From positions 1,993,654 to 2,057,653 of the forward strand of contig NZ_CP007201.1 in assembly GCF_000568815.1 (NCBI RefSeq): a stretch of 64,000 nucleotides of DNA, given 5' to 3'. The position numbers and the translations under genes were made by a program. Shown piece after piece: positions 30,441 through 60,213 of this stretch. Each line of letters opens with the position of its first letter. The stretch's first letter is position 1. Origin of the DNA: Sulfurospirillum multivorans DSM 12446 (lineage in GTDB: Bacteria > Campylobacterota > Campylobacteria > Campylobacterales > Sulfurospirillaceae). The notes beneath the pieces were generated by a model that worked only from the letters and a program-made list of their open reading frames with translations, did not search any database and was not told the origin of the DNA.

Positions 30441-31508
30441 TCACGCTTCTTCTGCATTTTTACGGATAAAAAGTGTGTGTGTTGGGTAGGCAAATTCGAT
30501 CCCTTCTTTGCCAAAAGCTTCAAATATCGCCATATTAATCGACTCTTGAATATCCATATAGATCGTGTAATCATCGCTATTGACGTAGTACACAAATTCA
30601 AAATTCAAACTTGAATCGCCATAGCTTGCAAAATGCCCTCGATCATACGTTGTCGTATCTATCATGGTAATAATCTCTTTCACAATGGTCGTGATTTTTT
30701 TGAGCTGTTCTGGCGCAATCTGATACGTCACTCCCAAGGAAAACACAACCCTTCGTTTTTCCATTCGTTTATAATTATGCACGCGTGAATTCGTCAAATC
30801 GGTATTGGAAAAGACAAGTTGTTCGCCACTGAGTGCGCGAATACGGGTCGTTTTGATGCCAATATGCTCCACAACCCCTATTTTATCGCCAACCATGATA
30901 AAATCACCCGACTCAAAAGGTTTATCAAAAAAGATGACAAAATAGCTAAAAAGATCCCCAAGAACGGCTTGAGCGGCTAACGCAACAGCAATACCACCAA
31001 TGCCAAGACCTGCCACCACGGCTGATATTTTTACCCCAAGATTATCAAGGAGAAACATGATGGCAATCATCCAAATAGCAAAACTCACCAGTCCACTAAT
31101 CCCTTTGAGTTGATCTTTCTTTTGTATCGAATCAACCGATGTTTGTAAATAGCGTTGCAAACTATAATGCGCAATAGCAATCACAATACGAACAGAGAAT
31201 AGGGTAAGCACCACAAAGATCATCACATCAAGGATATGTTCAAATTTTGAGGACAACACAAGAAATTTGAGCGACAGATAAAAGATGGAAAAGTAAAAAA
31301 CAGGAATAAAATAGGTCTCGATGACACTGATGATTAAACCACTCACGTGTGTGGGAATCGCATTGATCCATATTTTCAGCTTTGTCAAAATGTAATATTT
31401 AAAGATAAAAACAGATAAAGAACCTAATGTAAAAAAGCCAAAGGCAATGCAATAGTCCAAAAATGGATTGCCCATAATCGTATAATCTAAGAGTAAATTG
31501 ATCGTCAT
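30441..31508 (-). CDS. MscS-family mechanosensitive channel
   Basis: 355 residues. Several N-terminal helices, then the pore helix VVAGLGIGGIAVALAAQAVLGD with the Gly/Ala pattern of MscS TM3, then the beta-domain FDKPFESGDFIMVGDKIGVVEHIGIKTTRIR and a C-terminal alpha-beta region. It should release solutes after osmotic down-shock. It overlaps the upstream osmolyte-synthase gene by ATGA, so the making and release of a compatible solute may be made from one message. A TTACATGTAA follows the gene at 30412. Confidence 0.88.
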   Translation of the reverse strand: MTINLLLDYTIMGNPFLDYCIAFGFFTLGSLSVFIFKYYILTKLKIWINAIPTHVSGLIISVIETYFIPVFYFSIFYLSLKFLVLSSKFEHILDVMIFVVLTLFSVRIVIAIAHYSLQRYLQTSVDSIQKKDQLKGISGLVSFAIWMIAIMFLLDNLGVKISAVVAGLGIGGIAVALAAQAVLGDLFSYFVIFFDKPFESGDFIMVGDKIGVVEHIGIKTTRIRALSGEQLVFSNTDLTNSRVHNYKRMEKRRVVFSLGVTYQIAPEQLKKITTIVKEIITMIDTTTYDRGHFASYGDSSLNFEFVYYVNSDDYTIYMDIQESINMAIFEAFGKEGIEFAYPTHTLFIRKNAEEA

Positions 31509-33771
31509 GTTATCGTACGATTAGGAATCACCGCACGCATGAATCCTTCGCCCCATGTGTGAACATCGTTACTTCGCACAATCGCATTCATACGCGTCAT
31601 TCGGTACGTTCTATCATCTTCACCTAATGTTAAGGCAAGATACAACACCTCTTCCATACTTTTCGCATCGTAAGGATTGGTCAGCAATGCACCATGAAGC
31701 TCAACCGCCGCACCTGCAAACTCAGAGAGAACAAGCGCACCATTTCCCCCTAAATGCCCTTGTGTTGCCACGTACTCTTTGGCGACAAGGTTCAGTCCAT
31801 CGCGCAACGGGGTAATCCACGCCACATCTGCCATAGCGTAATATGCAATCACCTCTTCATAAGGAATGGAGCGGTAAAAGTAACGCACAGGCGTCCAATC
31901 CAGCGTTGAAAAGCGACCGTTAATGCGCCCAACCAAGGTATCAACTTCCACTCTAAGTGCCTCGTACACTTCCATACCAGGCGCTGCGGGAGTGACAAAA
32001 TTGAGCAAAACCAACTTTCCAACAAACTCAGGGTGCTTCTCAAGTAAAGTTTCAAACGCCAAAAGTTTTTCAAGCGCACCTTTGACGTAGTCCAGTCGCT
32101 CCAACGAGAGAATGGCACGTTTACCCGAAAATTGAGCGCGAATATCTTCGATTTTATGACGCACTGTCGTTTTGTGAAGCAAACGATCAATCTGCGCACA
32201 ATCAATCCCCACAGGATGCGCACCCAACCTCACCCTCTTTCCTAAAACCTCAATCTCATCGCTCATCAAATCCACCCCAAGCGCGCAACCATAGGTCATA
32301 AACCGTGGAGCGCAGGGGACGTGGGAAAGTATTTTTGTTGGGGCATAACTGCGCACGACATCGACAAAATTTTCCACATAACGAGGAATATGAAAGCCTA
32401 TATAATCGCATTGCAACAGACTTCCGATGATCTCACGACGCCACGGAATGATATTGAAAATATTGGAAGGGGGAAAGGTTGTGTGGTGAAAAAAGGCGAT
32501 TTTCAGATCGGGGCGTAACATACGCAAAAACGCAGGCACCATCCATAAATTATAATCATGAATCCAAACCAAAGCGCCTTTTGAGGCTTCAAGGGCAGCT
32601 TGTTTGGCAAAAATTTCATTAATCTCAAGGTAATGTTCCCAGTGTTCTTGCTTAAATTCCGCCTTATCGGGAAAGGAAAAGATGATGGGCCAAAACGCCT
32701 CTTTGGAAAATTTCTTATAAAACAGATCCACATCTTTGGCTAAAAGAGGAATGCGTGCGGCTTTTAATTTGGGGTATTTTTCCACATCCACGTCGACATG
32801 CACTTCAAAGTTTGAAGGCTCGCGCGAACTTTGTTGCGACCACGCAACCCATGAGCCCTCAACGCCTGAGGAGAAAAAATTTAACAGTGTTGGCATAATG
32901 CCATTGGGACTTTTAGGTTTTCTCCTCTCTCCATTTGCCAGCTCATCAAAAGGTAAGCGATGGTACACCATGACCAAATCCGACGTTCCCTCTTCATGCA
33001 CCACACTTGGCTTCTCACTTTTCAAAAATTGATAATGCGCAAGCCCCTCAATAATCCCCGCACACCCCTCGCCCGATGAAAGATAAACCCCTTTGTCATC
33101 ACGAACCGCGTGAACAAGGGCTGGCTCTGCTCCACCCACAACGATGCTAGAGAAGCCTTCTTGAAACATCGACAAATCATTCATCGTGTCACCCGCAGTC
33201 ACAACCGTTTCGTGAGCAAATTCAAGATGCGCACACAGCTTCCGCAAGGTCGCACCTTTTCCAACGCCTTTGGGCAAAACATCAAGGTATTTTCGTGCGG
33301 AGAAAAGAAGCTCGCACCCCAAAGAGGCAACAACGGCTCTTAATGCATCATCGATCATCGCTTCATGCACCAAAACGAACACCGACGCTCCTGTGGAACA
33401 CTTTGGCGCTCTAAATAGGAAAAAGATTCCAGTGCATCTACCACCGATTGCGTGCCAGGCCAAAGATCGGAAATCTCTTGTTGCAACGGAAAAACAGGCA
33501 ACAACGTATCACCATAAACCACTGTTGCCCCCACATCCGCGATAATATAATCAGGTCTGGGAACCATCGGGTCATTTAAAACAGGCAAAATCGACTCTAA
33601 GCCTCGTCCTGTGACAAAAACAAGTTTAGCATAAGGAATATTTCCGCTAAAAAGTTCACGTAAATGCCGTCGTGCGGACAGTGGACCTGCGAGTAAAGTA
33701 CCATCCAAATCCGTTGCTAGAACAACGCTTGAGTTTGAATGTAAAGAAGAAGAAAGTAATTTTTTAAGCAT
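31505..33771 (-). pseudogene. ggpPS: HAD-GT20 bifunctional gene, frameshifted; probable GgpPS
   Basis: An N-terminal HAD phosphatase (TDLDGTLLAGP; FVTGRG; later GDTMNDLSMF) is fused to a GT20 synthase (HDYNLWMVPAFLRM; FFHHTTFPPSNIF; CDYIGFHIP; PLRDGLNLVAKEY). The reading frame changes near 33378-33392: the first frame runs from 33771 to a stop at 33355, the second carries on to 31505. One missing base (a -1 shift) would restore a protein of about 755 residues. Phosphatase-first, synthase-second is the order of glucosylglycerol-phosphate synthase/phosphatase (GgpPS) in proteobacteria, which makes the osmolyte glucosylglycerol; trehalose-phosphate synthase is the alternative. The shift may be a real mutation or a sequence error. 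Coupled to mscS by ATGA. Confidence 0.72.
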
Positions 33772-56194: not shown

Positions 56195-56542
<348 letters not shown>

Positions 56543-56550
56543 TTCTTCTA

Positions 56551-56576
56551 GGTGGGGATTTTTCCCCACCTTTTTT
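56551..56576 (+). terminator. Terminator of amtB-glnK
   Basis: GGTGGGGA, TTTT loop, TCCCCACC and a run of six T. Textbook intrinsic terminator. It lies between convergent genes. Confidence 0.9.
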
Positions 56577-56578
56577 CC

Positions 56579-57832
56579 TTATACTTTTTCGATTAACTCT
56601 AAAAGTCTATATTCTTTATCATTCTTCACAAAACATTTCTTTTCTACATCAAAAAAGAGAGTATTTAACACTAAAGAACCCTCCTTCTCTTTATTAAAGA
56701 CGAATCTTCTAGTATTAATGTCATTATCTTTTGGATAGATAAGATACATTTCTTGACATGCTTCATACTTTGTACCATACGCATAAAGCTGGTACATATC
56801 AGGTTGAGATATGCCTTCATTTGTCTTTTCTTTTGAGAGTATTTTCCATTTGGTATCGGCGATTAAAAGTTCTTCTTCATCGTAAATGAGTATATCTGGT
56901 TTAAGCCTAAATCGACCGCTTTCATTTTCATACGCTAAATGGTGTTTTGCATCTTGCAGCTTTACATGTAAACCTTTTTTCTTGAGATAATCTCCCACAT
57001 AGCTCTCAAAAAGCAGGTTCATATCAAACAAAAGTGCAAAAGCAATATCGTTACCTTTATAAGGGCTAAATGAGTTTTCTAGTAAAAAAGTTTTACACCA
57101 TAAAAGTACGTGTTCATAGTCTTTCATCTGACGATTTGGCTTTACATGTAAGAAGTCATTTTTTATATCTTTGCACACAGAAATTTCATCGAAAACAAAT
57201 AAAAACTCTCGTATGCGTTGTTGATTGGCGTTGAGTTTGGATTTTTTATAAAGGTATTGAAGGGTGGTTTTAATCAGCCTGTTTTCGGCTCTATCACTCA
57301 AAAATTCTTGGAACTCCACAAAAAATCGTTCTTTATGGATGGTGTTTTGTTTGATTTGCTCGCCTATCTTGAGTTTGCCTTTTAGGAATTTAAGATTTTC
57401 TTCTTTGGTAATATAGTCGCTTTTGATACCTTTACGAACAAGAGCTGCTAACTCTTCCAAAAACATCGTAATAAATATCTCTAATAAGGGCATTTTTGCG
57501 CTTTTAAGATGTGCCATATTGCAGTTTTTAAAAGGAGATTTTTTCAGAGTTTTAAGCATTTTTATCAAAATGTCTTTTGATTTTTCTTCGCTTATATTTT
57601 GAATTTTGGGCAATATTTCTATGGTCGTTCCATCTTTTGTTTGAATAACACCGACATAATTTTGAGCTTGAAGCACTTTCCCAAACCCTTTTTTGGTGGT
57701 TATTTTGAGGTACTGCGCTGTTTCTTCATTGTCTAAAACAAACTTTTCAATGGCTAAAAATGTCTCTTCTTTGATAAAATGAGGTTTTGCTTTATCTTTG
57801 TACTGAAGTGACTCATACTCTTTTAAAATCAT
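56579..57832 (-). CDS. mcrC: McrC, nuclease subunit of McrBC
   Basis: 417 residues of the 5-methylcytosine-specific restriction endonuclease partner family. A N-terminal domain (YVGVIQTKDGTTIEILPKI), a central helical part (LSDRAENRLIKTTLQYL) and the PD-(D/E)xK nuclease at the C-terminus: RLKPDILIYD then LLIADTKWKIL. It cuts modified DNA when bound to the McrB GTPase ring. ATGA overlap with mcrB. Two TTACATGTAA (56962, 57142) are inside, read as LHVK. Confidence 0.88.
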   Translation of the reverse strand: MILKEYESLQYKDKAKPHFIKEETFLAIEKFVLDNEETAQYLKITTKKGFGKVLQAQNYVGVIQTKDGTTIEILPKIQNISEEKSKDILIKMLKTLKKSPFKNCNMAHLKSAKMPLLEIFITMFLEELAALVRKGIKSDYITKEENLKFLKGKLKIGEQIKQNTIHKERFFVEFQEFLSDRAENRLIKTTLQYLYKKSKLNANQQRIREFLFVFDEISVCKDIKNDFLHVKPNRQMKDYEHVLLWCKTFLLENSFSPYKGNDIAFALLFDMNLLFESYVGDYLKKKGLHVKLQDAKHHLAYENESGRFRLKPDILIYDEEELLIADTKWKILSKEKTNEGISQPDMYQLYAYGTKYEACQEMYLIYPKDNDINTRRFVFNKEKEGSLVLNTLFFDVEKKCFVKNDKEYRLLELIEKV

Positions 57833-59271
57833 GCGTAAAACGTGCTAAAATCAAAACTGTCTTTGATGGTATATTTTGATTTTTCCTCTTCAATATACTC
57901 TGTATTTCTAAACTTTTCATCAAAAATATCAGATTTTATTTCACTTTTTTCAATAAATCCATCGCCCAATACCATCACTATTTTTTCCCAATCATCATAA
58001 AAATACTCTTGCAATAGTGGAATGATTTTATTTCTAAAGATATATGATACTGTCTCAAGCGTTTGTTTATCTGGCTCTTTCAACTCCATAAAATACGCAT
58101 GTCCGATGGTGTGGTCACGGTCGTAAAGATACTCAATGCGTTTGTTAATCGCCTCAAGCATACTCTTTACATGTATGCCCTCAATACTAAAATCTAGTAA
58201 CTCAGTACGAGGCATCATTTCTGTAAAATCAAACCTTCGTCTCAGCGCAGTATCCATCAAAGCAATGCTTCTATCGGCGGTATTCATCGTGCCGATGATG
58301 TAGAGATTTGAAGGAACGCCAAAACTTTCATTAGAATACGGAAGTCTAACATGTAAAGATTCCTCCGCTCCTATACGCTTACTTGGCTCGATAAGCGTGA
58401 TAAGTTCTCCAAAGATTTTAGAGATATTGCCACGGTTGATTTCGTCGATGATGAGGATGTAGTTTTTTAATTCATTGTTTGGAAATCTTTTATGGATATC
58501 TTCAACTATAAATTTTCCATAAGTGCCATCAGGTTTGCTTGATAATTTTCCATCATTTATTTCTATCAATTTATTGATACTAAAAGAATGATTTGTCTGT
58601 GTAGTTATGCCAGAATCACTTTTCGATAACTTAAAAGGAACGCCCGTAATAGTTTTTAAAATTATCTCTTCATTCTGTAATAATTCACGATGTTTTTCGA
58701 TTTTTTCTTTAAAAGAAAAACTTTTATCGTTTGTCTTTTCACAAAGATTTTTAAAAATACCACTGACAACTTTATAAATCATTTCAAGACCATTTTCATT
58801 CCCTTTTTCTTTGGGAGGTATGGCTTTTATCCCTTCCACAAACTCCTCATAGCCATAGCTTTGATGAAAGGTGACAAATTCAATCTGTCCTGCTTGTTTG
58901 TAAACTTCAAACTTTGCTTTTAAAGATTTTCTATTTTCAGGTGTTTCTTCTCTGTGCCTTTCAAAAAAATCATTATCGATAATCTCAATCGCTTTAGTAA
59001 TAGTATGGTACGTTTTGCCTGTGCCTGGAGGGCCATAAAGAATTTGATTTAGAGATTGTAGTTTTTTCATATTCTCTCCTAATTCACCGTAAATGACTTT
59101 TATGACATAGTTATAGAGCTTTTCATTATTATTAAGAATATAGTTGATGGTTGATGGTTTTAGTCCATTTTCGACCAATTTAACATAAGTCAATCGTTTT
59201 CTTGTTTCTTCATCTAATTTTTTGACTAATTTTAAATCAATCGAGTCTTCATAAACATTTACAACTTGCAT
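57829..59271 (-). CDS. mcrB: McrB, AAA+ GTPase subunit of McrBC (N-terminus displaced)
   Basis: 480 residues from ATG at 59271. Walker A is LYGPPGTGKT, Walker B LIIDEINRG; the GTPase signature is GTMNTADRS with ALRRRFDF after it. The frame stays open before the ATG to a run of six G (C6 at 59347-59352) where a second frame, with its own ATG at 59482, ends. Removing one G would join both into about 550 residues. The joined N-terminus looks like a modified-base reader of EVE/ASCH type (IDQLALIYISKSVREIQYIM). So this gene is either phase-variable, broken, or misread at one base. Confidence 0.85.
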   Translation of the reverse strand: MQVVNVYEDSIDLKLVKKLDEETRKRLTYVKLVENGLKPSTINYILNNNEKLYNYVIKVIYGELGENMKKLQSLNQILYGPPGTGKTYHTITKAIEIIDNDFFERHREETPENRKSLKAKFEVYKQAGQIEFVTFHQSYGYEEFVEGIKAIPPKEKGNENGLEMIYKVVSGIFKNLCEKTNDKSFSFKEKIEKHRELLQNEEIILKTITGVPFKLSKSDSGITTQTNHSFSINKLIEINDGKLSSKPDGTYGKFIVEDIHKRFPNNELKNYILIIDEINRGNISKIFGELITLIEPSKRIGAEESLHVRLPYSNESFGVPSNLYIIGTMNTADRSIALMDTALRRRFDFTEMMPRTELLDFSIEGIHVKSMLEAINKRIEYLYDRDHTIGHAYFMELKEPDKQTLETVSYIFRNKIIPLLQEYFYDDWEKIVMVLGDGFIEKSEIKSDIFDEKFRNTEYIEEEKSKYTIKDSFDFSTFYA

Positions 59272-59329
59272 GATATATTGAATTTCTCGTACACTTTTTG
59301 AAATGTAGATTAAAGCTAATTGGTCAATT

Positions 59330-59482
59330 TCAACATTGATCGCTTTCCCCCCAACCTTTATACAATCCTTGTTCTATTGTATCTCGAACATCACCCCATT
59401 TTCCCTTGGGATTGTGTGTTAAAACGATAATTTGTGATTTATGTATTGATGCAAAATTTTCATTTTGTTTAAATTCACTCAT
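59330..59482 (-). CDS. Detached 50-codon N-terminus of McrB
   Basis: An ORF of 50 codons starting six bases after the stop of the upstream gene. It ends soon after the G6 run at 59347-59352. Its residues IIVLTHNPKGKWGDVRDTI fit the front of a base-reader domain whose rest lies in the mcrB frame. As printed it would give a short peptide with no known function. Confidence 0.6.
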   Translation of the reverse strand: MSEFKQNENFASIHKSQIIVLTHNPKGKWGDVRDTIEQGLYKGWGESDQC

Positions 59483-59487
59483 CGCCT

Positions 59488-60213
59488 CTACTCCTCATTT
59501 TCCAATACATTATCCTGCTCTATTACTCTTTGCTCTTCTTTCATACGGTACGTCATCACCAAGTTAAAACAGAGCTCGCTTAGCATCAAAAGATCCCACA
59601 TCGTAAGTATCTCTAAAAAAGGCATTCCTTCTTTAAGGCTTTCAAAATCAATCTTACATGTAAAGACATACGCATCGTTGGGAGCGCCTAGTTCTGGGAG
59701 ATTGAGGGAGTATTGAAACGCAAAGCTCATGTCAGCTTTTCGCCCCATGCGGCGAATGCGTTTGAGTGTGCCATCAAAATCTTTTTCATTGAGACGAATC
59801 TCGGAGTGAATGTTATGCGAAAGGACATTGCGCACAAACGAGACAATATCAAAAAAGTTTTCGTACTGTTCGCCAAAGAGTTTTTGCATAAAGATTTTAA
59901 ACGGACTCTCGAAACGAAGGCTCTCCACCATCGCCATGCAGATGCCGCGAAAAGCGTTAAACTCAACAAAATACTCAAAGAGCGAAATGTCCTCTTTTTT
60001 GGTTTGGCGCGCATTGATCAACAACTCTTGAATGATCTCGGCATTGAAGTAGTACGCTTTGTCATCTTCGTACTTTTTCACCACAAACAGACTGCGATCA
60101 CTCAGGTCTTCCGTTTTGGTAAGCTTGCCTAAAAACTCGCCCATGTGTAAAAAGTAGAAGTTTTGCTCCACGAGCAAAAGGGCATCATCGAGTAAAATTT
60201 CCGTATCGTTCAT
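59488..60213 (-). CDS. Uncharacterised helical protein coupled to the molybdoenzyme
   Basis: 241 residues from ATG at 60213, which overlaps the molybdoenzyme stop as ATGA. Mostly helical by residue pattern. RNVLSHNIHSEI resembles the R-x4-H of HEPN proteins, but the rest is unlike the small HEPN toxins. The link to a molybdopterin enzyme would suit a chaperone, yet TorD motifs were not found. The function is not known. TTACATGTAA at 59654 is read as FTCK. Confidence 0.6.
   Translation of the reverse strand: MNDTEILLDDALLLVEQNFYFLHMGEFLGKLTKTEDLSDRSLFVVKKYEDDKAYYFNAEIIQELLINARQTKKEDISLFEYFVEFNAFRGICMAMVESLRFESPFKIFMQKLFGEQYENFFDIVSFVRNVLSHNIHSEIRLNEKDFDGTLKRIRRMGRKADMSFAFQYSLNLPELGAPNDAYVFTCKIDFESLKEGMPFLEILTMWDLLMLSELCFNLVMTYRMKEEQRVIEQDNVLENEE

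Follow-up and report, generated by a model that had tools for sequence, protein, structure and literature searches.

A frame break at a six-G run in mcrB of a Sulfurospirillum multivorans McrBC locus and a predicted internal start before the McrB P-loop

The mcrB gene of the window (the whole 64-kb stretch of DNA analysed) was split by a frame break at a run of six G (59347–59352, minus strand), while its nearest intact orthologue, found in Sulfurospirillum sp. SCADC, had five G and an uninterrupted frame; an in-frame ATG at 59070, preceded by a strong Shine-Dalgarno (SD) match, lay between the two domains of the broken gene. We gave about an even chance to the following account of the locus: a type IV operon was inserted between torD and glnB, a recent gain of a single G broke its reader domain, and an AAA+-only product would be left with restriction off.

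The mcrBC locus and the break in mcrB

The locus was a McrBC type IV restriction system, for which cleavage of modified DNA is predicted. McrB displayed an AAA_5 match (E 1.5e-11), P-loop GPPGTGKT, and motif MNTAD, and the adjoining McrC matched PF10117 (E 6.5e-102), a pair that identified type IV mcrBC genes; PADLOC returned general restriction-enzyme matches only. The mcrC gene (56579–57832, minus strand; nuclease subunit) was intact and overlapped the mcrB stop in an ATGA. The operon was bordered on the left by a torD-like gene (named here; 59488–60213, minus strand) just upstream of mcrB and on the right by a glnB-like gene for P-II (56204–56542, plus strand). This placement was found in two genomes, those of the window and SCADC; in most relatives in which both neighbours were compared, the torD-like gene and glnB were adjacent without mcrBC, and the nearest relative G017 (torD 96% identical) had such an empty site. 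The mcrBC pair would thus be an insertion common to the window genome and SCADC at one site, or would have been lost elsewhere. Terminator-like hairpins were present at the torD|glnB junction of empty and filled sites alike (window 56204–60213, L030, and L111–L130).

The split of mcrB at the six-G run, as claimed in the preliminary description, was confirmed at the same coordinates, and the window had just one other G/C run of at least six bases. Two pieces of mcrB were recognized: (i) a 5′ piece (59330–59482, minus strand), which was a 50-codon ORF opened by an ATG at 59482 (the true start, with a strong SD), ended at 59330, and encoded residues 1–45 of the EVE-like domain protein; and (ii) a 3′ open frame (57829–59373, minus strand) of 514 codons plus stop, which was open back past the six-G run and held the remainder of the EVE-like domain plus the AAA+ GTPase. 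The 480-aa ORF from the ATG at 59271 differed in frame from the 50-codon ORF. With one G fewer, the joined McrB had exactly 550 residues, in agreement with the earlier figure of about 550.

SCADC encoded an uninterrupted McrB of 560 aa (L030:4866–6548), and the joint read GGCTGGGGGAAAGCG in SCADC (five G) versus GGTTGGGGGGAAAGCG in the window (six G). Residues 1–135 of the joined window McrB had 86% identity to SCADC, well beyond chance, with 45 of the 50 codons of the 5′ piece aligning with SCADC McrB. The homologues from Aliarcobacter, Sulfuricurvum, and other Campylobacterota likewise kept a continuous frame through the break point, where the G run was encoded by conserved Trp-Gly-Lys codons; across six aligned homologue sequences, 38 columns were invariant and spread over both sides of the break. 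The proposal that deletion of one G restores one continuous domain was thus borne out by SCADC and by conservation across the break, and none of the homologues found with the domain started at the 59271 ATG, the arrangement that had been named as contrary to it.

The EVE-like (PUA-fold) reader domain spanned approximately residues 17–133 of the joined reading (59083–59434, minus strand) according to a structural model of the intact SCADC copy (six sequences; mean pLDDT 85.7), and the break at residue 45/46 fell mid-domain, where a predicted strand ends. Foldseek and VIA-align gave EVE structures as the best matches of this model (2gbs, Z 11.2; 1zce, 10.9; 2eve, 10.2), with human THYN1 bound to 5-methylcytosine DNA at Z 10.6; ASCH and YTH folds came next at Z 8–10, and EVE was not sharply separated from them. 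The N-terminal domain matched no Pfam family, EVE included, even with the E threshold relaxed to 10, and sequence searches of plasmids, phages, and PDB with it gave nothing useful; its family was small and seen in Campylobacterota only in the searches made here. The earlier label of a base-reader domain therefore held at the level of the predicted EVE/PUA fold, and the fold shared with the model says nothing on which base, if any, the domain reads. The feature positions supported the earlier statement that the break would cost McrB its DNA recognition, here the reader domain, but spare the GTPase.

Age and nature of the break

The arrangement of an EVE-like reader plus McrB AAA+ GTPase, followed by McrC, would make an ordinary type IV restriction operon, in which a single G gained recently within a coding five-G run (Trp-Gly-Lys codons) would have broken the reader domain and abolished full-length McrB. 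A recent date was suggested by low dN/dS throughout the gene and by the absence of any further lesion from mcrB and mcrC: dN/dS relative to SCADC was 0.14–0.23 in the mcrB pieces (the piece upstream of the break included) and 0.20 in mcrC, each value being an average over both branches that says little on a very young lesion.

The conservation of the remainder of mcrB would equally suit a consensus error, in which case the true genome would have five G and encode an unbroken McrB of 550 aa, and we regarded this as a substantial possibility while leaning to the other side. The window genome was complete (3,175,729 bases), and it was compared with the sister genome G017 over 596 orthologous genes (~800 kb; one of the three window-genome blocks was almost without G017 counterpart). 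Breaks were flagged eight times in the window genome and three times in G017; one of the eight concerned an ORF of just 123 aa and another involved distant segments, leaving about six clean one-base breaks in the window assembly versus about two in G017, where one of the three flags mirrored the otsAB break of the window genome. This surplus, together with the finding that several of the breaks examined were length differences in short homopolymers, spoke for residual errors, but the broken genes were all of usually losable kinds (sensor kinases, chemoreceptor, GGDEF-EAL protein, trehalose synthesis, and channel), as real lesions would be, which leans slightly towards real lesions, although six cases prove little. 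With about 1% of genes broken, the rate is compatible with residual errors and with real lesions alike.

The other breaks, in genes whose names were all assigned by reading their sequences, were as follows: (i) a trehalose-phosphate synthase/phosphatase-like gene (window 31505–33771, minus strand) with a one-base break near 33374 (TT versus TTT in G017); and (ii) one-base breaks relative to G017 at G000:C1 (the window genome) 1985558, 2290755, 2295347, 2419163, and 2518387, in genes for a hybrid sensor kinase, a channel with a TrkA-N-like part, a GGDEF-EAL protein, a chemoreceptor, and a histidine kinase.

Phase variation, in which the G run would slip reversibly and turn the reader domain on and off, had been suggested in the preliminary description and was found very unlikely. 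It would suit a G homopolymer within a defence gene in a member of the Campylobacterota, an off state that leaves an AAA+-only product, and a genome that also has one G9 tract in a methyltransferase-like gene. The six G of mcrB, however, fell below the Campylobacter cut-off of at least seven for G/C tracts, most of which have 9–10 (PMC6321876); no conserved repeat tract was present in the homologues, the run being of five G in SCADC and of fewer in the other aligned sequences, as dictated by the conserved Trp-Gly-Lys codons; and the genome had 53 exact G6 runs, most of the 30 inspected lying within long open frames. Tracts of at least seven G numbered only five in the whole genome, the longest being G9. 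This G9 tract (G000:C1:1799058–1799066; L137:1501–1509), located outside the window, split an ORF whose translation has a DPPY motif resembling that of methyltransferases, and the frame beyond it continued CAWNSGGIGKMLGFE...HHGGWHNDTIVTVEVK; the 155-aa piece at the tract matched no Pfam entry, and the family contained no relative. Phase-variable G tracts of Campylobacter usually have this length, and judged by sequence the gene would be a better phase-variation candidate than mcrB.

Some full-length McrB might also be yielded by recoding, through a ribosomal +1 shift at GGG-G or polymerase slippage, which we judged extremely improbable. The mcrB frame was open beyond the G run, and GGG GGA lets glycyl-tRNA re-pair after a +1 move, but the homologues encoded McrB in one frame with five G or fewer and gave no conserved recoding site; programmed frameshifting was set aside on the ground of this single frame.

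The internal start in the window gene and across McrB genes

Three ATGs of mcrB were compared for SD strength, which was −8.9 kcal/mol at 59482, −7.3 at 59070, and −3.0 at 59271; of the 2442 internal Met codons counted over 400 kb of the window genome, only 1.7% attained −7.3. The ATG at 59070 was preceded by an SD-like AGGAG (59076–59080, minus strand), was placed in frame between the reader and AAA+ domains, and opened a predicted internal ORF (57829–59070, minus strand) for an AAA+-only, McrB-S-like product of 413 aa, starting ten codons before P-loop GPPGTGKT. The surviving start was thereby moved from the ATG proposed earlier (59269–59271, minus strand), which lay within the EVE-like domain and was rejected as a real start by its weak SD and by the homologues, to 59070 as the likely one. 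In E. coli, internal initiation produces an AAA+-only McrB-S, which withdraws McrC and so lowers restriction (PMC12707154; PMC3874153). If the break is real in cells, an AAA+-only product from ATG 59070 would probably still be made and would pair with McrC, unable to find modified DNA, with restriction off as the outcome; the six-G allele would probably be S-only and restriction-off by this analogy, since ATG 59070 would yield an AAA+-only protein, as does the McrB-S start that lowers restriction in E. coli.

A census was applied to McrB genes of two sets for an ATG with SD of −5 or stronger located 4–25 codons before the P-loop. Such an ATG was present in 21 of the 67 dereplicated McrB ORFs of the first set (2.4 expected, judging by other parts of these ORFs), which were the genes where the pattern was first noticed and after which the threshold and codon range were chosen, and in 17 of the 46 McrB genes of the held-out set (2.3 expected), which was fetched later, filtered against the first set, and searched with both values unchanged. 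Fisher p for the held-out set was 1.6e-8 versus other in-frame ATGs and 0.005 versus out-of-frame ATGs of the same linker; the excess was clear in Campylobacterota (6/9) and the Enterovibrio phylum (8/20) but weak in the Exiguobacterium phylum (3/16).

Synonymous-codon shuffles alone gave 23.5 of 67 ATGs versus 38 observed, with none of 500 shuffles reaching 38, and part of the predicted SD signal is supplied by Gly/Glu-rich linkers. Stricter dereplication left 24 observed versus 14.6 ± 2.3 in shuffles (0/300 on the mean), the strictest left a small excess (14 of 300 shuffles as extreme), and a scrambled anti-SD control gave no excess. One census match list included the window's own mcrB, and some N-termini were taken stop to stop, of which a few were maybe untranslated; the effect was kept when 150 codons were required. 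The annotated E. coli McrB-S start, used as control, had SD −2.7 and lay 39 codons before the P-loop, outside the range searched; the census misses this proven case and is therefore read as marking a different, tighter position.

Internal initiation was accordingly predicted to be common in the McrB family, and this prediction, made from sequence, has been replicated once. The broadest form of this proposal, to which we gave somewhat less than an even chance, is that in several phyla, and beside unrelated N-terminal domains, an SD-preceded start before the P-loop makes McrB-S as a general part of the system, so that a break in the reader would amount to an S-only, restriction-off allele.

Five loci (L092, L235, L100, L056, and L262) harbored McrB ORFs that themselves started just before the P-loop, so that an AAA+-only McrB can exist as an independent gene. 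Two of these loci, L092 and L235, had an ORF upstream (of 357 and 251 codons, respectively) that ended one codon earlier in the same frame; here a stop may split reader from motor, or each may have its own gene.

McrB-S is already well known from E. coli, and the window mcrB is a known kind of gene with an apparent recent break, which is a routine matter of loss of function or assembly and bears on any inference of McrBC activity in the strain. Internal initiation for McrB was discussed for E. coli only in the literature found by a non-exhaustive search, and the SD signal in about one third of diverse McrB genes lets the reader-less subunit be tested as a general McrBC regulator.

Comparison with known systems

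SCADC McrB and the window McrB shared the torD-like/glnB site, the domain order, and the internal SD-preceded ATG (SD −7.3 in SCADC), but SCADC had an intact frame with five G and a different mcrC N-terminus. The EVE-McrB fusions (PMC7641849; PcdA, PMC10602043) likewise displayed a PUA/EVE-fold domain before the McrB AAA+ domain with a McrC partner, while the window domain had no Pfam EVE sequence match and belonged to a small family.

The E. coli K-12 gene for McrB-L and McrB-S resembled the window gene in yielding a full-length and an AAA+-only product from one gene (predicted in the window), but its reader was DUF3578/SRA-like rather than EVE-like, and its internal start had a weak SD and lay 39 codons from the P-loop, compared with a strong SD and ten codons in the window; because of these two differences in the start, the comparison was taken as an analogy of position and product only. 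Intact McrBC of C. jejuni is reported to confer functional phage resistance, and in some C. jejuni strains, as in the window, mcrB is frameshifted while the neighbouring mcrC is intact (PMC8713573), although the N-terminus of C. jejuni mcrB differs from that of the window gene.
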